Assembly (NCBI GenBank): GCA_012970285.1
Contig: JIBW01000002.1
Coordinates: forward strand, 992,001 to 1,056,000
Source of the DNA: Bacillaceae bacterium JMAK1
Lineage (GTDB): Bacteria; Bacillota; Bacilli; Bacillales; Marinococcaceae
Reading direction: 5' to 3'
Length of the DNA: 64,000 nucleotides
Shown here: positions 1-64,000 of the stretch, one piece after another
Layout: each line of letters opens with the position of its first letter
How positions within the stretch are numbered: position 1 is the first letter of the stretch
Translations under genes and position numbers: made by a program
Notes under the pieces: generated by a model
Told to the model about the DNA's origin: nothing
The model's database searches: none
The model's input: the letters and a program-made list of their open reading frames with translations, nothing else

Positions 1-253
1 AGAAAAACCATTTAAAGAACTCTTCAATAAACGCCGTTTTAAGAAATACGTCAGCTAGCCTCGACGTGAGAAGTCCTTCCTCAGTTAGAGCAAACTGAAT
101 CGCCATAATCGGAAATACAATTAACATTCCCGTCACAAAGGACCTGATAATGTTTTTCCAATTCGCTGAGCCGTAATCATTTCGCAAGTAGAAATACGTG
201 AGTAGCGCCAATGCTGGAGCTGATGCTAACGAAAGTAAAGCTAGAACATTCAT
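1..253 (-). CDS. prsW: PrsW-type intramembrane glutamic protease, N-terminal part
   Basis: Only the first 84 codons are inside the window; the gene runs off the left edge. The reading frame begins MNVLALLSLASAPALAL, a first membrane segment, followed by a basic loop and a second segment. It then reaches FIEEFFKW, which fits the EExxK motif of the PrsW/CAAX-protease-like family. In B. subtilis PrsW performs site-1 cleavage of the anti-sigma factor RsiW. The ATG overlaps the ansA stop codon (ATGA), implying translational coupling. prsW also lies beside ypdA in B. subtilis. The family call rests on the motif, topology and position; the second half is not visible. Confidence 0.8.
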   Translation of the reverse strand, partial: MNVLALLSLASAPALALLTYFYLRNDYGSANWKNIIRSFVTGMLIVFPIMAIQFALTEEGLLTSRLADVFLKTAFIEEFFKWFF

Positions 254-1224
254 CGATCAAACGCGTGTTGATACGAATCTTGTCCTGTTGCCAGTAATAC
301 GTATAGTTTAATTTTTGCTTTCTTACTGCTATAGTCTTTACCAAGAATAACGTCATGATTCAACAAGTCATATGTACTGCCTTCATATTCATAAGAAGGA
401 TAAACTTCGCCTTCAACAGCACTCGTAGTAACAACAATCGGGATCTTCGCTTCACGAATGCTCGGCATAAAGTTCTTTGGTACTTGGCCACGACCGACCC
501 CTTCAATAATGACAGCACTCGTTCGTTCATCTTGCAGAACAAAGTCTAACATTTTGTTTGTAGCACCGAGATGCACTTTCACAATTTCAATTTCATAAGG
601 CTTGTTTGGTTTATAATCGTCAGCAATCACGTAGGCTTCTTTTGAGATCGGCTTTTGGAACAAATGAACTTGATCATTGTCAATAATTCCGAAGTAACCA
701 TATCCAAAAGCATTAAATCCTTGAATATTGCTTGCGTGTTCTTTTCTTACATACTTCGCACTAAAGATACGCTCATTAAATATGACGACAGTACCGAGGT
801 CTTTTACCCGTTCGTCAGCAGCTGCAATCATTGCATTACGTAGGTTAACGAATGCATCACTACCTACTTGTTCTGGGCCCCTTTGCGAACCGGTGACAAT
901 GACAGGTTTTGACGTTTGAACGGTTAAATCTAAAAAGTAAGCCACCTCTTCAAGCGTGTCCGTCCCAGTCGTAACGACCACTCCTGAAATGTCTTTTGCT
1001 CGAAGATTCTCTACTACTTTCTTTCGAATTTCCCATAAATCATCATACGTAATTTGAATGGAAGGCTTCGACAGTACTGAATCGATTTTAAGACGGATAT
1101 CGAATGGTGTATGAAGCGAATTGGCAAGCTCTTCGCCACTTAATTCACCCGCAACGAGTCGACCTTCTTTCGTTTGTTTACTAGCAATCGTTCCTCCAGT
1201 AGCAAGCAAGCAAATCGTCTGCAC
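250..1224 (-). CDS. ansA: L-asparaginase
   Basis: Hydrolyses L-asparagine to aspartate and ammonia. The 324-residue length is normal for bacterial asparaginases. Both active-site signatures are visible: TGGTIAS near residues 9-15 carries the nucleophilic Thr12, and TGTDTLEE near 86-93 carries the second Thr/Asp pair. No signal peptide is seen, so a cytoplasmic enzyme is expected. The gene sits 2 nt behind ypdA and overlaps prsW by 4 nt, so the three are probably co-transcribed. Type I or II cannot be decided from sequence alone. Confidence 0.93.
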   Translation of the reverse strand: MQTICLLATGGTIASKQTKEGRLVAGELSGEELANSLHTPFDIRLKIDSVLSKPSIQITYDDLWEIRKKVVENLRAKDISGVVVTTGTDTLEEVAYFLDLTVQTSKPVIVTGSQRGPEQVGSDAFVNLRNAMIAAADERVKDLGTVVIFNERIFSAKYVRKEHASNIQGFNAFGYGYFGIIDNDQVHLFQKPISKEAYVIADDYKPNKPYEIEIVKVHLGATNKMLDFVLQDERTSAVIIEGVGRGQVPKNFMPSIREAKIPIVVTTSAVEGEVYPSYEYEGSTYDLLNHDVILGKDYSSKKAKIKLYVLLATGQDSYQHAFDR

Positions 1225-1226
1225 GA

Positions 1227-2219
1227 TTAATGACCTCTCTTTTCGCGTTCAATAATAGAATCTACAATGTGTAAACCATGAAATCTCCCAGATTCTATAA
1301 AGATTTCATTCGCATGATTTCCTGCTGCAATTACCCCCGCAATGAACAACTTGTCTACATTCGTCTCGAACGTTTCTTTGTTATAAACAGGTCTCCCCGT
1401 ATCAGATTCAATCGCCACACCACTACTCGTTAAAAACGAATGATCTGGGTGATAGCCCGTCATCGCAAAGACAAAGTCAGTGTCTATTGTTTTTTCGCGC
1501 CCATTCGTAAGCACCAAAACATGAGTATCATGGATCTCTAGAATTTCCGTTTCAAAGTACATGTTGATCTCTTTTTTATTTACGAGACCTTGGTATTCAG
1601 GTAAGATCCATGGTTTGATGCTCGTTGAATAATCATTGCCACGATAAATGACCGTAACGTTCGCACCAGCTTTTTGTAACTCCATTGCCGTGTCCACCGC
1701 TGAGTTTCTACCACCAATGACCAGAACGTTTTGCCCATAAAAAGGATGGGCTTCTTTAAAATAATGAAAGACATGCGGCTTTTCTTCGCCCTTGATGCCT
1801 AACCGATTCGGGTTGTTATAGTAACCTGTTGCAACGATGACATACGCCGCTTCGTATTGCTTATTATTTTTGTTGCGGTCTATTGTTTGTACCCTAAATT
1901 GTCCGTTTTCCTGCTTTTGTATGCGTTCAACTTCTTCGTACGTATGAATGCGTAGTCCCATTCTCTGAACCACTTCACGGTAATAAACTAGCGCTTCATT
2001 ACGTCTTGGTTTATGGTTTGTTGAATAAAATGGGACGTCACCAATTTCTAATTTGTTTGCAGCAGAGAAAAACGTTTGATGTGTAGGATAATGATAAATC
2101 GCTGAAACGATGTTCTCTTTTTCGATAATTAACGGGTCTAATCCCGCTTCCTTACAACGAATAGCCGCTGCCAGACCGCATGGTCCAGCACCGACAATAA
2201 TGATACGTTCTTTGTTCAC
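1227..2219 (-). CDS. ypdA: YpdA-family bacillithiol disulfide reductase
   Basis: A flavoprotein expected to reduce oxidised bacillithiol (BSSB) with NADPH. The N-terminus has an FAD Rossmann motif, GAGPCGLAAA, including Cys14, the conserved YpdA active-site cysteine. A second dinucleotide motif, VIGGRNSAVDTAME, is present near residues 166-179. The length of 330 residues is typical. It lies directly between the GDH-like gene and ansA, as ypdA lies beside gudB in B. subtilis. A bacilliredoxin (brxB) later in the window fits a bacillithiol-using cell. Confidence 0.93.
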   Translation of the reverse strand: MNKERIIIVGAGPCGLAAAIRCKEAGLDPLIIEKENIVSAIYHYPTHQTFFSAANKLEIGDVPFYSTNHKPRRNEALVYYREVVQRMGLRIHTYEEVERIQKQENGQFRVQTIDRNKNNKQYEAAYVIVATGYYNNPNRLGIKGEEKPHVFHYFKEAHPFYGQNVLVIGGRNSAVDTAMELQKAGANVTVIYRGNDYSTSIKPWILPEYQGLVNKKEINMYFETEILEIHDTHVLVLTNGREKTIDTDFVFAMTGYHPDHSFLTSSGVAIESDTGRPVYNKETFETNVDKLFIAGVIAAGNHANEIFIESGRFHGLHIVDSIIEREKRGH

Positions 2220-2231
2220 AACGACACTTCC

Positions 2232-3527
2232 TTATGATAAACCACGATAATTCAAAGCTTCCGCATGACGCTTAATTCCAATTCTAGCTGCCGCTTCTCG
2301 CATGTTCGAATTGTTTTGCTTCGCTTCTTCAAAAACTTGATCGAACACCCGATACATCGTCTCTTTGAACATCGCATTAATTTCAGATTCACTTAATGTA
2401 ACCCGTTGCTCATGTTGCATAGCTTCAAAATGACTTAACGTCAAGTTGCCTAAGTTGGTCATAATTTCTGGCACGACCATAGAGCCTCTTTGATACAATT
2501 GATCGACTCTTGATTCCGAGAGCGTTTGTTTTGCCGTTTCTACAACGAGTCTCGCTTGAATAGTGTCTGCGACCTGTTCTGTCATTACGTTTTTGTCGAG
2601 TGACGCATCGACTAGAATATCACATTGTGATCCGAGTAATCGTTCTGTAGAAATTGACTTCTTAAAAAGGTTTGTAACCATACCAAAGCTGTCACGACGG
2701 TCGAGCAAATAATCAACATCTAGCCCGTCTTGATCATAAAGTGCACCATGTCCATCCGATACCCCGATCACATTTGCTTCTTTATTCTCCAGTTCTCGAG
2801 CCAAATACACACCTGTATTCCCAAACCCATGAACGATAATATTCGCACTTTGAACGCTCATGTTTAAACGTTCAGCTGCTCTTTCAATCGTGAATTTCGC
2901 ACCTTTTGCAACTGAATGCTCTCGTCCAGGAACACCACCGAGTGACTCAGGCAGCCCTGCAACAACTTTATGATGAAGATCTGGGCGAATCATCTCAACT
3001 TCATCGTGCATCCAAGCCATTAGCTGTAAGTTCGCAGGTGTTGGAACGTCTGGTGTGATAATATCTTTCGTTGCGTTCATAAGTGGTAATAACGCGCGAA
3101 TATATCCGCGACTTAATTGCTCAAGCTCATGAAAAGATAAGTCAGAAGGATTACAAATGATTGCACCGCTTGCCCCGCTATACGGAATATTTAACAAACC
3201 CGTATGAAGAGAAGTTTTCATCGCTAAAGCTTGTACATCTTGTTCATCCAAACTCGGATGAAGAATAACACTGCCAATTGAAGGCTGTGAAGAACGAATA
3301 TGTTGGGAACGATACCCCTTAAAGATTCGAATGCTGCCATCGTCCATCGTAATTGGAATTTCTACAGTGAACGAGCGGTATGCAGATGTAAGTATATCCA
3401 TTGTGTCTTGTGTGTAATCTAGTGCATTGAGCGCGTTCTTAATCGTAGACTTCATTGCTTGTATACGACTATTCTCGTTTCCATCTTGATCTACGACTGT
3501 CTGTTCATTCCTCTTCATATTCCCCAT
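2232..3527 (-). CDS. Glutamate dehydrogenase-like protein lacking active-site lysines
   Basis: The protein is colinear with GudB/RocG over its whole 431 residues and occupies the gudB position between ypdA and ypbH. The start is the ATG at 3527 behind a GGAGGTG site; an in-frame GTG at 3563 is less likely. The Rossmann motif GFGNTG, the LDRRDSFG segment and the catalytic-type Asp (TPDV, D160) are kept. The three active-site lysines of the family are replaced: the GPxKGGxRFHP segment reads QPSIGSVILHP (K to I84), the next Lys is His108, and PYGGGKGGI reads PYSGASGAI (K to S120). The frame is intact. Catalysis of glutamate deamination is therefore doubtful; it may be a regulatory or structural paralogue. 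No other function can be assigned. Confidence 0.85.
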   Translation of the reverse strand: MGNMKRNEQTVVDQDGNENSRIQAMKSTIKNALNALDYTQDTMDILTSAYRSFTVEIPITMDDGSIRIFKGYRSQHIRSSQPSIGSVILHPSLDEQDVQALAMKTSLHTGLLNIPYSGASGAIICNPSDLSFHELEQLSRGYIRALLPLMNATKDIITPDVPTPANLQLMAWMHDEVEMIRPDLHHKVVAGLPESLGGVPGREHSVAKGAKFTIERAAERLNMSVQSANIIVHGFGNTGVYLARELENKEANVIGVSDGHGALYDQDGLDVDYLLDRRDSFGMVTNLFKKSISTERLLGSQCDILVDASLDKNVMTEQVADTIQARLVVETAKQTLSESRVDQLYQRGSMVVPEIMTNLGNLTLSHFEAMQHEQRVTLSESEINAMFKETMYRVFDQVFEEAKQNNSNMREAAARIGIKRHAEALNYRGLS

Positions 3528-3648
3528 TAAAGGGCCACCTCCATATTGTGAGCCGGAGTTCACGCATAATCGAAAACTCCGGACTTTAAAACAGGTTATA
3601 GTGGGTCTTTACCCTACTTTACATGAAGTAATTCCTATATTAACTATA

Positions 3649-4272
3649 TTAAAGATCGATCTGTTTTTCCACTTGTTTGTCTGGATTATCTTTATAAAAT
3701 ATTGTCGCCAATCGATCAACCGCGTTTCGTTTCATGAGCAACTTACCATGTTCCTCAACGGCTACATGTGAGTAGGGACAAACATCTGCGTATTCAGAGA
3801 CAATGGCAATAAAGCTGTCCATATTCACTTTTTTGATCGTGGTATAAGGAAAATACAAATAATAGTTATCATTCATAGAAAGTAGCTTGCCACTTTTTAC
3901 ACCTAGTCGCTTTAAAGTTCGAACGAGCTGAATAACAGCCTCAAAATCTTTAAACTTATAAAATAAATCGTTTCGCTCATCAACAGTTATATCCATCTCA
4001 ATCATATCATCGTCGTCATACAACGTATCTTCTTCATTTTTTGAAATATGAATAACCATTCCTTGCGCAGGCACTGAGAACACTTCAACGGATAGCGCCC
4101 CATCAACTTTAAAGCCAAGTAATTGATCTGCCTCCATCACCAATTCGCGAAACAGTTGATGTACTCTCGGACGGTCGAGCCACAAATCATCCATCGTTAA
4201 TCCACGTTCTTCTAAATCATCAAACGTAAGGAAGACTTTTATTTTATTGGCGGCGATTCTTTCAAGACGCAT
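3649..4272 (-). CDS. mecB: MecA-family adaptor protein (YpbH/MecB-like)
   Basis: A 207-residue ClpC adaptor-family protein. The N-terminus, MRLERIAANKIKVFLTFDDL, is the typical substrate-binding domain opening; an acidic linker (around residues 88-95) is followed by a C-terminal domain with the DFEAVIQL and YLYFPY segments expected to bind ClpC. The start is the ATG at 4272 preceded by AAAGGAGGGG, seven codons inside the longest frame. Position next to the gudB locus marks it as YpbH/MecB rather than the main MecA. Family members target proteins for ClpCP degradation; the substrates here are unknown. Confidence 0.87.
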   Translation of the reverse strand: MRLERIAANKIKVFLTFDDLEERGLTMDDLWLDRPRVHQLFRELVMEADQLLGFKVDGALSVEVFSVPAQGMVIHISKNEEDTLYDDDDMIEMDITVDERNDLFYKFKDFEAVIQLVRTLKRLGVKSGKLLSMNDNYYLYFPYTTIKKVNMDSFIAIVSEYADVCPYSHVAVEEHGKLLMKRNAVDRLATIFYKDNPDKQVEKQIDL

Positions 4273-4347
4273 ATCGCCCCTCCTTTTCACCACGCAGGCA
4301 TTTGAATGCTGTAATGGTATACGCTATTCAATTACCCTCATCTGCGT

Positions 4348-5109
4348 TCACGACTTTAAAGACGTTGTCGCGCCCTTTTTGAGAAGGATGTGATGTACTT
4401 CAGGAGGAGCTCCTAAACGTAGGTGAACCTTACGTGTACCAAATCCGTTGCTAATTCTCATCTTTGCACTTCCTAATTGCTGCCATCTTCCCCGTTCGCG
4501 AAGTCCAAGGCCGAACAAACGTATTTGTCCACCGTGAGTATGCCCCGATAAAATCAAGTCGTACACACGGCTATTTGGATGTTGTAACGGCACGAGTGGA
4601 TTATGACTGATAAGAATGCAATAATCTTCATTCTGTCGCTTTTGAATGACGGCTTGTTTCGTCGACTCATCTTTTGTTCCGTACACATAAACGCCATCAG
4701 AAATGTACATACCTTCGTTTTCTAAGACGATGATGTTTTCTTGATCTAACATGTCCTTAAGTTGTTTTTGATTCCACCTATAATCGTGATTGCCATAAAC
4801 GAAAATAATTTGCGATGACAATCTCTTTAACATGTTCAGATTGTGCTCGAGCGTCTCAACCGTCGTTTTCCGCTCTACAAAATCGCCTCCTATGATGACA
4901 CAATCTACTGTATCTACTGTATTTATCGTTTTTATATGACGATCGTTTAGTCTTCGTTTGTGCAAATCACTAATAAAAAGTAGCGAACAATCTTCCTTAC
5001 TATTTTCAACGTGAAACGTTTTCTCTTCAACGATGAGCGTATTTGCTTGAATCCTCATCGCGATGAGCACAATAACTAAGAGCAACAATAAAAGCAAAAA
5101 TAACATCAT
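4348..5109 (-). CDS. ypbG: Membrane-anchored metallophosphoesterase (YpbG-like)
   Basis: A 253-residue calcineurin-like phosphoesterase with one leucine-rich N-terminal membrane segment, so the catalytic domain is probably outside or at the membrane. Metal-binding motifs appear in order: FISDLH, GGDF, GNHDYRW, ISHN and GHTHGGQ. The start is placed at an ATG (5109) five bases after the sirtuin stop, with GGGG upstream; a TTG at 5124 inside the sirtuin gene is an alternative. The physiological substrate of YpbG-type proteins is not known from sequence. It is in the ypb gene run conserved with B. subtilis. Confidence 0.85.
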   Translation of the reverse strand: MMLFLLLLLLLVIVLIAMRIQANTLIVEEKTFHVENSKEDCSLLFISDLHKRRLNDRHIKTINTVDTVDCVIIGGDFVERKTTVETLEHNLNMLKRLSSQIIFVYGNHDYRWNQKQLKDMLDQENIIVLENEGMYISDGVYVYGTKDESTKQAVIQKRQNEDYCILISHNPLVPLQHPNSRVYDLILSGHTHGGQIRLFGLGLRERGRWQQLGSAKMRISNGFGTRKVHLRLGAPPEVHHILLKKGATTSLKS

Positions 5110-5114
5110 AAATT

Positions 5115-5804
5115 TTATCCCCAAGCTTTTTTAAGATCAGAAAGACCTGTACTGATCTTATTGTTGATCCAAAAATCGAACGGATAATCGCTCGGCTCAT
5201 CGTTAATATAGACGGTCGTCCCATTCGCTACGTATGGCAACTGATTAACAGGGCTCACTTGTAAACTCGTTCCAATGACGAGTAAAACGTCCGCCTCTTT
5301 AATTCTCTTTACTGCCTCATTCCAAGCGAACTCGGGCAACATCTCACCGAATAGTACTACATTTGGTCTTAATACGCCTTGGCAAAGTTCACAATGACTA
5401 CCTTGTAAAAAGATCTCTTCATTTTGCACGCGTTCGCACTGATGGCATCGAACGGAGCGTATGCTACCGTGAAGTTCCAATACGTTATTATTACCGGCAG
5501 CTTGATGCAGTCCGTCTACATTCTGAGTTGCAATCGCATGCAATTTGCCTTCTTGCTCCCACTCCGCCAAAATACGATGACCAAGATGAGGATTAACCGT
5601 ATTCAGTGCTTTAATTCTCTGTCGATAAAACTCGGAGAACAACTCATAATTACTTTCTAACGAATCAACACTCGCTACTTTCGCTGGATTATAGCGACTC
5701 CAAAGTCCACGTTGCGACCTAAAATCTGGCACACCAGACTCTGTAGACATACCCGCTCCAGTTAAGACAACGATTTTGGTTGGTTGTAAATCTTCTATGT
5801 TCAA
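5115..5804 (-). CDS. NAD-dependent protein deacylase, sirtuin family
   Basis: Removes acyl groups from lysine using NAD. Motifs: LTGAGMSTESGVPDFRS (NAD binding), TQNVDGLH, and the catalytic His in LELHGS. A four-cysteine zinc site follows as CHQC and CELC. The most likely start is the TTG at 5804, seven bases after AAAGGGG, giving 229 residues; the longest frame would begin at another TTG, 5831. The B. subtilis sirtuin gene srtN is elsewhere on its chromosome, so placement among the ypb genes is a local difference. A short gap to ypbG suggests an operon. Confidence 0.92.
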   Translation of the reverse strand: MNIEDLQPTKIVVLTGAGMSTESGVPDFRSQRGLWSRYNPAKVASVDSLESNYELFSEFYRQRIKALNTVNPHLGHRILAEWEQEGKLHAIATQNVDGLHQAAGNNNVLELHGSIRSVRCHQCERVQNEEIFLQGSHCELCQGVLRPNVVLFGEMLPEFAWNEAVKRIKEADVLLVIGTSLQVSPVNQLPYVANGTTVYINDEPSDYPFDFWINNKISTGLSDLKKAWG

Positions 5805-5867
5805 GAGATTACCCCTTTCATTTTTCAACAAATTGACATGAACAAGCTAGTCGTAATGAACCATTTT

Positions 5868-5885
5868 CCCTTATAATTATAAGGG
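5868..5885. promoter_or_regulatory. Perfect 18-bp palindrome in a divergent intergenic region
   Basis: CCCTTATAATTATAAGGG is a perfect inverted repeat between the sirtuin gene (minus) and a small membrane-protein gene (plus). A TATAAT hexamer is read on each strand inside it, but no convincing -35 box was found 16-18 bases upstream on either strand. It could be an operator, overlapping divergent -10 elements, or chance. Confidence 0.35.
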
Positions 5886-5912
5886 ATTCAACGTAAATAC
5901 ACGAGGTGAATC

Positions 5913-6089
5913 ATGGAATATACAACATTTATTATCGGGACAAGCCTGTTTGGCGGAGGATTTTTACTTTTACTTCTTTTTTTGTATTTAAAACGCAAGC
6001 TCGTCATCCCTTTTATTTTGATGGGCGCTGGAGTGATGCTCTGCTTTATCGGGTTGATCCTCGCGCAAGATTTTTCACAAACGCCGTAA
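5913..6089 (+). CDS. Small two-segment membrane protein, function unknown
   Basis: A 58-residue protein beginning MEYTTFIIG, with two hydrophobic segments (about 5-27 and 33-50) separated by a short basic turn, KRKL, and a short polar tail. The start follows a GAGGTGA ribosome binding site, and an intrinsic terminator lies 4 nt after the stop, which together make a real gene likely. It is divergent from the sirtuin gene. I do not recognise the family. Confidence 0.65.
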   Translation: MEYTTFIIGTSLFGGGFLLLLLFLYLKRKLVIPFILMGAGVMLCFIGLILAQDFSQTP

Positions 6090-6091
6090 AA

Positions 6092-6122
6092 AAGCAGACG
6101 AGCTCTTCTTCGTCTGCTTTTT
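6092..6122. terminator. Intrinsic terminator, potentially bidirectional
   Basis: Stem GCAGACGA/TCGTCTGC at 6094-6101 and 6110-6117, flanked by an A-run on the left and a T-run on the right. It ends the small membrane-protein transcript. Confidence 0.8.
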
Positions 6123-6208
6123 TATACCAATTATTTAGGCGATTATCCACTTCTCATTTCATGAATTTTCAGTTATTATATCAATAAGAAGCAAAGGAGG
6201 GCGTTGCC

Positions 6209-6448
6209 ATGTGTAGAACAACACTGAAAGATCACTTGTTGATCTTCGATGAAGACTTGCACTTCAACCAGCGAATTGGAATGCCTGTTCAAGTTTTTTG
6301 TCTCACTCAACAAAGGGTTGTCGCTTTCGGCAAAATTCAAAACATTTCGAATAAATGTGTAACGATTTCTAAAACAGCGTTCCTAAAGTCACATCACATC
6401 ATTATTGGATATTCAGCATCAACGAAGAATTCCTCAACGATAGAATAA
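6209..6448 (+). CDS. Hypothetical protein, 79 residues
   Basis: The start follows a strong ribosome binding site (AAAGGAGGGCG, six bases before ATG). The product is soluble and mixed in charge, with a possible beta-rich middle (QVFCLTQQRVVAFGKI, NKCVTISKTAF) resembling small PilZ- or Sm-like barrels only loosely. No named family is recognised. Its last 15 bp overlap the 3' end of the convergent ypbF gene, with no terminator between them. Confidence 0.6.
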   Translation: MCRTTLKDHLLIFDEDLHFNQRIGMPVQVFCLTQQRVVAFGKIQNISNKCVTISKTAFLKSHHIIIGYSASTKNSSTIE

Positions 6449-6862
6449 GTTAACGCCATGCTCCTTTTCTAACCAGTCGTAAACGTCATAACGCATGCTT
6501 TTTAGTTCTTCGTCACCCCAAAACTCATCATACCGTTCAATAACTTGATTTCTAAGTGATTTATAATCTTTCTCAGCCTCATCATATCGCTTGCGATAAA
6601 CGGTGAGCATCGCTGTTGCACCTAAACCGATTACGATCAGCAGTGGACCTAGTTCAGACTCTGTTGTTCGACTCACAATGGAAGTATGTTCACTTCCAAC
6701 ACCGAAGATTATATATGATAACGCAATTAACCAACAGACCGCTGAACACCATCCAAGCGTTATGACTGTCTTCTCTTCTTTCTTTTCAACTTTTTTTCGT
6801 TTAATCAGTTCTCGTAACAGTTTTGCAAGCGTTGGCGAGATCAAGTGTTTATCTTCAATCAT
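6434..6862 (-). CDS. ypbF: YpbF-family (DUF2663) membrane protein
   Basis: A 142-residue protein with a charged N-terminus, two hydrophobic segments (about residues 36-57 and 72-88) and a charged C-terminal tail rich in Tyr, Glu and Lys (KDYKSLRNQVIERYDEFW). Size, topology and position near ypbG and ypbH match B. subtilis YpbF. Start at the ATG 6862 behind GAGGTG; an in-frame GTG three codons upstream overlaps that site. The function of the family is unknown. Confidence 0.7.
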   Translation of the reverse strand: MIEDKHLISPTLAKLLRELIKRKKVEKKEEKTVITLGWCSAVCWLIALSYIIFGVGSEHTSIVSRTTESELGPLLIVIGLGATAMLTVYRKRYDEAEKDYKSLRNQVIERYDEFWGDEELKSMRYDVYDWLEKEHGVNLFYR

Positions 6863-6913
6863 TTCATTCACCTCATTACACTATATGAGGTATGACTGTA
6901 GATATACAAGTTT

Positions 6914-7174
6914 TCAAATAGCGGTAGACAAGATAAAGATGACAAGCGCTACAAACCCAATCGTTAGGACTTGAATCAGTATAGGACTTTTAGTTTGACG
7001 CTTTCTTGTTTTACTTTCTTTTGTAGAAACATCGGATTCTTTGTCGTTGACAGGTAGTTCACGCTTTTTTCTTCCATACGTTTGAACCCTAGAAGGGGTG
7101 GACGCTAAAGCAGCAGCGGTTTCATCCTTTTCTTCTCGTTGACTCATTTCTTTACTACGATACTTTGTCCCCAT
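6914..7174 (-). CDS. Small C-terminally anchored protein, YpbE-position
   Basis: An 86-residue protein with a long, polar, charged N-terminal region, a basic patch (KTRKRQTK) and one C-terminal membrane segment (about 64-84). The start at 7174 is preceded by GGGGAAGGA. It sits where B. subtilis has ypbE, whose product also starts with a polar region, a basic patch and a membrane segment but continues into a LysM domain. Here the reading frame stops right after the membrane segment, so it may be a shortened YpbE relative. Function unknown. Confidence 0.55.
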   Translation of the reverse strand: MGTKYRSKEMSQREEKDETAAALASTPSRVQTYGRKKRELPVNDKESDVSTKESKTRKRQTKSPILIQVLTIGFVALVIFILSTAI

Positions 7175-7294
7175 ATTCCTTCCCCTTTCCGTACAATTCC
7201 GAACTATATACAAGTACCGTACCGCAAGCGCTCATTTTTTACAATTCATTTGCGAAGAACTTTGTGAGAACATCGTGACACGTTCGTGAAACGG

Positions 7295-7323
7295 TTGATA
7301 AAATCAATCGAAAGGCATACAAT
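7295..7323 (+). promoter_or_regulatory. Sigma-A-type promoter for fer
   Basis: TTGATA at 7295-7300 and TACAAT at 7318-7323 are separated by 17 bp. The -10 ends 35 bp before the ferredoxin ATG. Confidence 0.65.
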
Positions 7324-7358
7324 GAAATGTAACTTACATGATCTGGAGGGTTTTACGA

Positions 7359-7622
7359 ATGGCTATTTTTACAATCGTCGATAAAGATACTTGCATTGCT
7401 TGCGGCGCTTGTAGCTTAGCTGCTCCTGACCTTTTTGATTATGATGAAGAAGGCTTGTCAGAATATGTTCTAGATGAGAATACTGGAATGAGTGCTGTGC
7501 CTGAAGCGAAAGAGGATGACTTTCTCGATGCGTATGAAGAATGTCCATCTTCTTCAATTAAATATGCGAGTGAACCGTTTCATCGTGATCCTTTGCGATT
7601 TGAATCGACGTCATCCTCGTAA
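7359..7622 (+). CDS. fer: 4Fe-4S ferredoxin
   Basis: An 87-residue single-cluster ferredoxin, an electron carrier in the cytoplasm. The cluster ligands are Cys12, Cys15, Cys18 (DTCIACGAC) and Cys62 (ECP). The protein is strongly acidic and matches B. subtilis Fer in length and opening ([14 protein letters not shown]). The start is the ATG at 7359, eight bases after GGAGGG; the longer frame is unlikely. It has its own promoter and a weak terminator before serA. Confidence 0.95.
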
Positions 7623-7627
7623 AATTT

Positions 7628-7654
7628 AGCTCTTCTAAACAGAGCATTTTTTTG
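7628..7654 (+). terminator. Weak intrinsic terminator after fer
   Basis: Five-base-pair stem GCTCT/AGAGC (7630-7634 and 7642-7646) followed by seven T residues. The T-run overlaps the start of the putative serA -35 box. Confidence 0.5.
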
Positions 7655-7681
7655 ACAGGTTCACTTTCATGCGTTACAGAA
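7653..7681 (+). promoter_or_regulatory. Candidate sigma-A-type promoter for serA
   Basis: TTGACA at 7653-7658, 17-bp spacer, TACAGA at 7676-7681. The -35 is consensus and the -10 is weak. It lies 30 bp before the GTG start of serA. Confidence 0.5.
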
Positions 7682-7711
7682 CTACTACATAGAAAAAGGG
7701 AGTTGGGTTTG

Positions 7712-9295
7712 GTGAGTGTTACTGTATCATATGTGCTTGTCGCTGATTCAATGAGTACTGAAGGATTGCGTCCGTTACTTGATGATCCACGAATTGAAGT
7801 CGTCCAGAAGAAACCTTCAGAATTAGACTCTTTAGAGGATTTTGTAGCTCTTGTTGTTCGAAGTGCAACACAAGTTGATGAAGCGTTATTGTTACGCATG
7901 CCTAATCTTAAAATCGTCGCTAGAGCCGGTGTAGGTGTCGATAATATTGATTTAGATGCAGCTACGAAACACGGAGTTATCGTAATTAATGCTCCTGATG
8001 GAAATACCATTTCAACTGCTGAACACACATTTGCAATGATGATGGCACTTTCTCGTAATATCCCACAAGCGTATGCATCTGTGAAAGCAAAAGAATGGAA
8101 TCGTAAAGCATTTCAAGGTATGGAACTCCGAGGGAAAACGCTCGGCATTATCGGATTCGGTCGAATTGGTTCAGAACTTTCCAAAAGAGCTGCTGCTTTT
8201 CAAATGTCAGTTGTAGTCTTTGATCCGTTTCTGACTCCAGAACGTGCAAAAAAAGCAGGCGTTACACTCGTAGAACTTGATGATCTTCTCCATCAAGCAG
8301 ATGTCATCACCGTGCACACACCGTTAACGAAAGAAACAAAAGGGTTGCTAAATGAGGAAACGTTAAAGAAAACGAAACGCGGTGTGTTAATTCTAAACAT
8401 TGCTCGCGGTGGGATCATTGATGAGTATGCCCTTCAAAAAGCGATTGAAGATGGGCATGTAGGCGGTGCTGCACTTGATGTGTTTGTGAACGAACCGACT
8501 GATAATTTCGACTTGATCGGCCTTACACAAGTGATTGCGACACCTCATATTGCCGCTTCAACGCATGAAGCACAAGAAAGTGTTGCATCACAAGTCTCTT
8601 ATGAAATTGCCCAAGTGTTAAATGGAGCACCTGCAACACATTCCATTAACTTGCCTGCCATTTCAGAAGAGCTATACGAACAAATAAAGCCGTATTACGA
8701 TTTAACGAAAGTGATGGGCTATTTCACATCTCAATGTGTGAAAACCCCTGTCCAACATATTGACGTCTCTTTTGGTGGCGACATTGCAACGGAAGAAACG
8801 TCTGTACTTACGAGAAGTTTTATGTCAGGTTTTCTTTCTCCTCGTGTAGATGCAGGCGTTAATGAAGTAAATGCAGGTATTATCGCCAAAGAACGAGGCA
8901 TTTCTTACAGCGAAGCTCATAGTTCCGAAAGCTACGGTTATGCGAACATCATCCAAGCGAACGTGAAAGGGACTGCCGGAGAGTTTCTCGTTCGTGGTAC
9001 GTATATTGATGCCTTTGGGCCTAGAATTATTCGAATTAATGAATTCAACGTCGATCTCTTCCCTTCTGGACACTTGATCTATATTAAACATACTGATCAG
9101 CCTGGTGTTATTGGTGAAATGGGACAGGCACTAGGAAAGCATGGTGTGAACATCGCAACGATGCAAGTTGGTCGTAAAGAAGAAGGCGGAGATGCAATTA
9201 TGATGCTTTCTGTTGATAAAGAAATCCCACAAGAAGCGATTGAACAATTAACGTCTGTTCCTGCAATACTCGCAGCTGACGTCATTGAACTTTAA
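7712..9295 (+). CDS. serA: D-3-phosphoglycerate dehydrogenase
   Basis: Catalyses the first step of serine synthesis, oxidation of 3-phosphoglycerate with NAD. The 527 residues show the substrate-binding segment (RAGVGVDNID), the Rossmann motif GIIGFGRIGSE, the catalytic stretches NIARGGIIDE and ATPHIAAST, a middle ASB domain and a C-terminal ACT domain (HTDQPGVIGEMG) that usually gives serine feedback control. The start is probably the GTG at 7712 behind AAAGGGAG; the longer frame with an earlier start has no ribosome site. fer and serA are also close in B. subtilis. Confidence 0.96.
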   Translation: MSVTVSYVLVADSMSTEGLRPLLDDPRIEVVQKKPSELDSLEDFVALVVRSATQVDEALLLRMPNLKIVARAGVGVDNIDLDAATKHGVIVINAPDGNTISTAEHTFAMMMALSRNIPQAYASVKAKEWNRKAFQGMELRGKTLGIIGFGRIGSELSKRAAAFQMSVVVFDPFLTPERAKKAGVTLVELDDLLHQADVITVHTPLTKETKGLLNEETLKKTKRGVLILNIARGGIIDEYALQKAIEDGHVGGAALDVFVNEPTDNFDLIGLTQVIATPHIAASTHEAQESVASQVSYEIAQVLNGAPATHSINLPAISEELYEQIKPYYDLTKVMGYFTSQCVKTPVQHIDVSFGGDIATEETSVLTRSFMSGFLSPRVDAGVNEVNAGIIAKERGISYSEAHSSESYGYANIIQANVKGTAGEFLVRGTYIDAFGPRIIRINEFNVDLFPSGHLIYIKHTDQPGVIGEMGQALGKHGVNIATMQVGRKEEGGDAIMMLSVDKEIPQEAIEQLTSVPAILAADVIEL

Positions 9296-63714: not shown

Positions 63715-64000
63715 TTACTTTAGATAGGATTTTTGAACCGCTCCGATACTCGCAATACGCTCTTCTGCCATACGATCAGCTGCTTTATAAGATGGAATCT
63801 TGTCTCGTTTTGACACATCAAAAACTTTCGTCATTGAATCGTATAGACCTTCTACTTTTTTCATGACACGATCGCGATCATAACCAAGCAATTCATCATA
63901 CACATTAATAACACCACCAGCGTTAATCACGTAATCTGGCGCGTAAACAAAACCTTTTTCATGAAGAAGATCGCCATGTCGTTGTTCTTTTAGTTGATTG
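63715..64000 (-). CDS. bcd: Leucine dehydrogenase, C-terminal part
   Basis: The gene continues beyond the right edge; the visible part reads from [17 protein letters not shown] to [20 protein letters not shown] and to the stop. [22 protein letters not shown] are typical for leucine/branched-chain amino-acid dehydrogenases. It converts branched amino acids to 2-oxo acids, the substrate of the downstream complex. Start not visible. Confidence 0.93.

Follow-up and report, generated by a model that had tools for sequence, protein, structure and literature searches.

A glutamate dehydrogenase-like protein without the family's active-site lysines at the gudB locus of Geomicrobium and related genera

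What use does a bacterium have for a glutamate dehydrogenase (GDH) gene whose product lacks the lysines of the GDH active site? The question is raised by an open reading frame (Table 1) in the 64,000-nucleotide stretch of DNA analysed here, called the window below. Genes 97% identical to it are present in Geomicrobium sediminis DSM 25540 (L033) and JCM 19038 (L032), and the source genome is a Geomicrobium or a very close relative. Genomes are given by our own handles where they have to be told apart, G000 being the window genome.

A GDH-like protein with a rewritten active site

A sequence-only reading of the window had described an intact 431-codon frame colinear with GudB and RocG. Pfam and alignments to structure entries confirm this description, to which the minus strand can be added. 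The domains ELFV_dehydrog_N (108 bits) and ELFV_dehydrog (161 bits) both score above their Pfam cut-offs and span the full length of the protein, as expected of the NAD-specific GDHs (GudB/RocG). The best solved relatives are the PDB entries 7mfm, 3k8z and 3k92, which we take to be GudB and RocG of B. subtilis; the alignments are nearly full-length, covering residues 19-429 with the GudB structure 7mfm (353 bits) and 22-429 with the RocG structure 3k92. In NCBIfam, the top score of 289 bits stays below the GDH equivalog cut-off of 750, the matching models being of archaeal, halobacterial or NADP types and a canonical GudB control being absent from this comparison. The fold and oligomeric state of the protein rest on homology, because the AlphaFold2 model, with the window protein and G. 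sediminis as input rows, was poor (mean pLDDT 37, pTM 0.26) and was set aside. The protein shares with B. subtilis GudB and RocG its length, both ELFV domains, the GFGNxG motif, the SD motif and the LDRRDSFG segment, whereas their catalytic and substrate lysines and their ANGPTT, PAA and AGG motifs are all changed in it.

Columns were set by alignment to GudB, RocG and the NADP-GdhA and leucine dehydrogenase of the same genome. The three family lysines (K89, K113 and K125 in clostridial GDH numbering, in which the active-site Asp is D165) are replaced by I84, H108 and S120, and the neighbouring box reads PYSGASGAI, exactly as the sequence-only reading had it. Its statement that GFGNTG, the Asp of TPDV (D160) and LDRRDSFG are retained also holds for the window protein. 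Among the relatives that carry such a protein (the lysine-less clade), Asp or Glu is retained at position 160 and GFG[ND].G at the Rossmann motif, with Glu in G003 and G018 and GFGDTG in G003. The window protein has further changes that had escaped the reading, namely D126N, G122A, P157I, EAAN to ETAK and VPAA to VDAS; GFGNTG is kept, and the latter two segments are altered. Two extra residues also separate TPDV from NLQLM.

All 38 canonical homologues compared have each of the three lysines. Of 104 columns that are at least 95% invariant in this canonical set, 19 are lost in the lysine-less clade, where a lost column is one kept in at most one of eight clade rows, with the near copy G001 left out. 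In window numbering and canonical letters, these are K84, E97, M105, K108, K120, G122, D126, P157, T190, T206, Q233, P307, A309, I315, T336, D354, G361, V362 and V364. The replacements D97, S120, A122, N126, I157, D307 and S309 are fixed in 8/8 rows, and I84, Q108, H233 and N361 are nearly so (7/8); the other lost columns vary. Clade-wide, the first lysine site holds I or L, the second Q or H and the third S, and the Asn of EAAN has become K or R in 7/8 rows and M in G018. By these alignments, the substrate and nicotinamide pockets have been rewritten and then largely refrozen, unlike scattered decay.

Leucine dehydrogenase has Leu at the K89 site (GPALGG), a hydrophobic residue as in the clade, where G007 reads GPALGG and the window protein QPSIGS. 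The lysine at this site therefore marks side-chain specificity, not catalysis, and the telling losses would be those of K113 and K125. Leucine dehydrogenase retains the equivalents of both, presumably its K68 and K80, together with the Asp, AAN and NAGG, whereas the window protein has neither lysine. According to excerpts of PMC8784811, the main-chain carboxylate is held in E. coli GDH by the equivalents of K113 and of the EAAN Asn, and catalysis falls to the following lysine. Judged by the family mechanism, a protein that has lost both this lysine and the residues anchoring the carboxylate is very unlikely to oxidise glutamate, and we consider it highly probable that the protein has no GDH activity.

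Table 1. Features of the window discussed in the text
Feature	Position	Strand	Remarks
GDH-like protein without K89/K113/K125 equivalents	2232..3527	-	431 aa; ATG at 3527, stop ending at 2232; Pfam and alignments
Shine-Dalgarno-like GGAGGTG	3536..3542	-	sequence; GGAGGTG in 10 of 10 leaders aligned
Leader hairpin CCGGAGTT-14-AACTCCGG	3553..3582	-	8-bp arms, 14-nt loop; immediately 5' of the Shine-Dalgarno-like site
Promoter-like TGGAAA-17-TATAGT	3643..3671	-	conservation; overlaps mecA end
ypdA-like flavin disulfide reductase (gene name ypdA as we take it)	1227..2219	-	12 bp downstream of GDH-like gene; conserved neighbour
Asparaginase (ansA-like)	250..1224	-	conserved neighbour
MecA/YpbH-like adaptor	3649..4293	-	conserved upstream neighbour
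Leucine dehydrogenase	63748-64000 and beyond	-	motifs intact; runs over right window end; G000:C4:1055748-1056728

The leader hairpin is kept in G003 as CCGGAGT..ACTCCGG; the remaining lysine-less leaders have hairpins of different sequence at about the same place, with weak statistics. Compared with shuffles, the hairpin stands out in G000 (z -4.0) and G007 (z -5.2) and is faint or lacking in the six further lysine-less leaders (z from -0.3 to -1.9), and two leaders from outside the family have roughly the same folding energy as the lysine-less ones. The Shine-Dalgarno sites were located by a simple rule that failed at 13 of the 33 loci given. No Rfam model matched at gathering scores in window positions 1-8000. 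A similar GTGGAAA...TATAGT precedes several canonical gudB genes of the taxonomic family; since a promoter scan found such sites no commoner than in shuffles, the promoter-like site rests on conservation, part of which is perhaps that of the mecA coding sequence. The leader has 0/121 mismatches between the window genome and G. sediminis. Strong constraint on the leader was considered as the cause and rejected, because the adjoining mecA is likewise unusually similar (2.5% mismatches) and local low divergence can account for the identity. The whole of 3528-4347, made up of mecA with its leader and the gap downstream, differs from G. sediminis by only 0-4% mismatches and is perhaps a recombined tract; on its flanks, the GDH-like gene has 8.7% and the metallophosphoesterase gene 15.4%.

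Distribution and origin

Of the 29 genomes of the taxonomic family that were searched, 10, spread over 4 of the 12 genera, encode a lysine-less protein at the gudB locus: Geomicrobium (G000-G003, 4/4), G006, G007 and the genus g10 (G012, G018, G023, G026). Orthologues with the same substitutions at the ypdA locus, which the sequence-only reading had suggested looking for, thus exist. The gene order mecA - gene - ypdA - ansA is found in 10/10 clade genomes, and gudB is adjacent to ypdA in the five family relatives read (G009, G010, G011, G017 and G021). G007 has a second, canonical gudB copy, which is not beside ypdA. The best match of each of the 19 non-carrier genomes was read; all three lysines are kept in 18 of them and two in G011. 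The latter gene (L018, 1501-2715, plus strand) is GudB-like and lies beside ypdA; it keeps K89 and K125 and has Gln for K113, ETGK for EAAN and SSD for APD. The gudB copies of G009 and G017 (L015 and L061; genus g7) keep the lysines and read PYGGSKGG, APE for APD and EAASGS for EAANGP; by these residues, they appear to be another drifting GDH branch.

In a wider sample of 397 genomes of the order, a DNA pattern for PY(G/S)GASGA matched three genomes, all of this taxonomic family and the only ones of the ten carriers within that sample. A clade profile run on 398 sampled genomes of the class gave 754 bits in two Geomicrobium and at most 601 elsewhere; the best 18 of the non-Geomicrobium matches retain all three lysines, and a lower-scoring lysine-less protein of another lineage would escape notice in this search. 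Within the genomes sampled, the trait does not extend beyond this taxonomic family.

In a tree of 48 proteins, the nine lysine-less rows form one clade (100/99) nested inside the gudB genes. The clade persists (98/95) in a tree of 35 rows in which 99 active-site columns were masked. In both trees, the G011 protein is sister to it (92/98 with all columns, 87/95 masked); some branches are long, that of G011 among them, and the tree program warned of long-branch joins for the 48-protein tree. The frameshifted near copy G002 was omitted. These trees show a single origin of the lysine-less genes within gudB, and the simplest account is that the old gudB gene was converted in place.

Selective constraint

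For the pair of window genome and G. sediminis, the gene has a dN/dS of 0.041 by NG86 (dN 0.018, dS 0.439) and 0.042 by YN00. The catalytic gdhA of the same pair gives 0.041 (0.024/0.598, NG86); the corresponding NG86 values are 0.098 for ypdA, 0.064 for ansA, 0.102 for sir2, 0.168 for the metallophosphoesterase gene, 0.016 for mecA and 0.018 for serA. In g10 the gene reaches 0.14-0.26 (NG86) or 0.17-0.32 (YN00), and its neighbours are lower (0.04-0.14, NG86). These comparisons leave out G002 and G003 with their frameshifts and ignore the serA pairs with G026 (misaligned, internal stop); a stop was also flagged for the G006 mecA.

A pocket set of 146 positions, chosen from family knowledge with the alignment already seen, was compared with the rest of the protein. 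In the G. sediminis pair, identity is 100% in the pocket set against 95% elsewhere: 0/14 substitutions fall inside the set, and four of the 14 sit 1-3 residues beyond it. Between G003 and the window protein, the figures are 67% and 48%. The pocket excess was reached by 0/132 shifted masks in either pair. Over the 36 clade pairs, 11 have at most 6/132 shifted masks reaching the excess and the remainder are unremarkable; in three G018 pairs the excess is reversed, and in the G018 pairs within g10 it is absent or reversed. In 9/9 canonical control pairs, it is larger than in the lysine-less clade.

With a dN/dS of 0.041 and a pocket that changes more slowly than the rest, the gene is firmly functional in Geomicrobium, where free drift is excluded. 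Unconstrained drift among close relatives, which the sequence-only reading had named as evidence against itself, is thus not seen in Geomicrobium, and constraint is weaker in g10, in part of which the gene is possibly on its way out. The reading's view that this is not random decay is supported by the single origin, the fixed replacements, the low dN/dS and the conserved Geomicrobium pocket, and we regard a functional pocket as likely.

It might be argued that the gene is a relic, gudB having become useless once NADP-GdhA and GOGAT sufficed and having decayed slowly since. The raised dN/dS in g10 and the missing pocket excess in G018 would agree with this, as would the frame breaks in the G002 and G003 assemblies. 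However, the gene is intact in the other eight clade genomes, the replacements are fixed across four genera, and dN/dS in Geomicrobium is as low as 0.041. The frameshifts are probably sequencing errors, because Ion Torrent PGM was the platform used for JCM 19038 (G002), according to PMC4064037, and the G003 assembly has a second frame break, in mecA. We therefore hold slow decay to be the case with very low probability. Hardly more probable is a protein kept for its fold alone, as a scaffold or protein-protein factor with an unused pocket. The loss of catalytic and NAD-side residues would be expected of such a protein, and the pocket excess is indeed weak or absent in most pairs outside Geomicrobium; against it, pocket change in Geomicrobium lags behind that of the remaining protein, and the clade as a whole shares many fixed pocket replacements.

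Possible partners and functions

Besides the lysine-less gene, the window genome has an NADP-type GdhA with intact motifs (23% identical to the window protein), the leucine dehydrogenase and a weak C-domain match (25 bits, no N-domain match) as its other ELFV proteins. No other GudB-type GDH was found in Geomicrobium with the N-domain model (3/3 genomes) or the C-domain model (4/4 genomes). The N-domain scan covered nine clade genomes, and G007 alone among them has a canonical GudB-type gene in addition to the lysine-less one; NADP-GdhA with intact motifs is present in 9/9 clade genomes read. G006, G018 and G023 have an extra GDH-like protein that bears the lysines (461-468 aa, about 26% identity to the window protein), and similar matches turned up in the N-domain scan of G012 and G026. 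A further ELFV-like protein in G006 (L127) and G018 (L128) has Gly at the K89 site (NGYTGGGTRMHP) and keeps the other two lysines (GGCKAG). The large NAD-GDH (PF05088) was found in 0/10 clade genomes. A second, intact GDH gene therefore exists in the window genome, as NADP-GdhA and not as a GudB-type gene.

These scans bear on the possibility that the protein is a regulatory, non-catalytic subunit mixing with a catalytic GDH. According to excerpts of PMC9570180, GdhA of Thermus thermophilus is such a catalytically inactive subunit of a hetero-hexamer and mediates activation by leucine. By this description, the Thermus protein (PDB 3aoe) is a natural inactive GDH homologue. The canonical GudB-type gene of G007 and the lysine-bearing proteins of G006, G018 and G023 could supply a catalytic partner. 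However, Thermus pairs GdhA with GdhB, whereas Geomicrobium lacks such a partner and G007 has one candidate; the sole other GDH in Geomicrobium is NADP-GdhA, 19-25% identical to the window protein; and G006, G012, G018, G023 and G026 have no second match above 113 bits among the matches listed. A Thermus-style partnership is thus unlikely, to the point that we give it little credence. Of the earlier interpretation as a whole, the kept architecture, the lost GDH residues and the gudB locus stand; the hetero-oligomer partner it suggested is not supported, the Geomicrobium scans having yielded only NADP-GdhA and leucine dehydrogenase.

Our best explanation is that the gene is a gudB orthologue that lost amino-acid-dehydrogenase catalysis once, in the common ancestor of the clade, and was then kept for another job as a neofunctionalised, ligand-binding protein that is not a GDH; we would give this an even chance of being right. 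As we best read it, the product would act as a regulator in glutamate metabolism, a new enzyme being the less likely option, and that it is a regulator rather than an enzyme seems to us a balanced proposition. Both ELFV domains are kept, as are the Rossmann motif and the LDRRDSFG segment, and the pockets were rewritten and largely fixed (I/L84, Q/H108, S120, A122, N126, I157, D307, S309 and mostly K/R333). In the likely mode of action, a GDH-fold oligomer would still bind a nucleotide, a small ligand or both where the active site used to be, the ligand probably being more hydrophobic or carboxylate-free. A ligand is argued for by the kept nucleotide-binding motif and the constrained Geomicrobium pocket. 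The ligand state would be reported to a partner in glutamate metabolism, like the side jobs of GudB and RocG in B. subtilis. A regulator is possible, and a conserved, rewritten pocket would suit a ligand sensor or a new enzyme as well.

The first candidate partner would be the glutamate synthase GltAB, although we consider this particular pairing unlikely. According to excerpts of PMC6794564 and PMC10938345, GltC is also under the control of the two B. subtilis GDHs, and GudB is bound and inactivated by GltAB. Once relieved of catalysis, a GDH could retain a control role of the GltC/GltAB type, but PMC6794564 reports that control of GltC requires an active GDH. GltA is present in 9/10 clade genomes. 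It was not found in G018, a single-contig genome, and is present in three other genomes of the same genus; since G018 keeps the lysine-less gene, GltAB cannot be the partner everywhere. The idea that GltA loss relaxed the G018 pocket was rejected (pocket-versus-rest Fisher p of 0.135, 1 and 0.26 with three relatives). No LysR gene was seen at the gltAB flanks in the family genomes read, so the B. subtilis GltC scheme is not supported here. Ten gltAB-neighbour open reading frames from G000, G006, G007, G023, G010, G014, G017 and G021 were typed by Pfam as TelA, exporter, hydrolase, TANGO2, semialdehyde dehydrogenase and one AraC regulator (G017); the flanks in G012, G026, G004, G008 and G019 were judged from ORF starts and a rough motif.

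Could the protein instead be a new enzyme, in which the Rossmann domain and the active-site acid still catalyse a redox reaction of a substrate that lacks an alpha-carboxylate, as in amine dehydrogenases or otherwise? An E. coli GDH engineered to Gln at the K113 equivalent plus N348M gains activity on levulinate, as reported in excerpts of PMC8784811. Gln is found at this site in 7/8 clade rows as in that enzyme (K116Q/N348M), His in the remaining case, and the carboxylate-binding Asn is gone in both, with K, R or M in the clade. The G011 protein, sister to the clade, has the Gln and the Lys and still keeps K89 and K125; the amine-dehydrogenase pattern, in which K113 and the Asn are replaced and the catalytic lysine is kept, is therefore complete in it. 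The retained Asp/Glu160 and GFG[ND].G and the constrained Geomicrobium pocket would also fit an enzyme. However, engineered amine dehydrogenases keep the catalytic lysine (K126 in the same excerpts), whereas it is Ser in all clade members; the nicotinamide-side residues (PAA, AAN) are altered as well, and the placement of G011 is on a long branch. We regard a new enzyme as a minority possibility, and hold with similar reserve its path, on which replacement of K113 by Gln and loss of the carboxylate-binding Asn came first and loss of the catalytic lysine second. Rather doubtful, too, is a stepwise origin from GudB of a lysine-free protein with new chemistry or a new ligand, in which a G011-like change of anchor (K113 to Gln, Asn to Lys) preceded loss of the catalytic lysine and the fixing of a new pocket.

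Another GDH-fold protein, YwlG of S. aureus, is a possible pseudoenzyme in the view of its authors, as given in excerpts of PMC9522360; YwlG is half-size, whereas the window protein is full-length. Among the titles listed from the open-licence literature on GDH pseudoenzymes, Geomicrobium, glutamate in Salicibibacter (perhaps g10) and neofunctionalisation, we found no description of a lysine-less protein at the gudB locus.

An ancestral housekeeping GDH gene was seemingly converted where it stood into a constrained protein lacking the catalytic lysines, and not by duplication with the old copy retained, given the absence of another GudB-type gene from Geomicrobium. Model-based annotation would most likely still call the product a glutamate dehydrogenase, and metabolic models would then credit these genera with a glutamate-degrading enzyme that is probably absent. 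The clade offers a natural experiment separating the catalytic from the non-catalytic roles of GudB, with G011 as a possible intermediate. If the stepwise reading is true, these genes would form a natural series that starts with an amino-acid dehydrogenase and ends with another activity.
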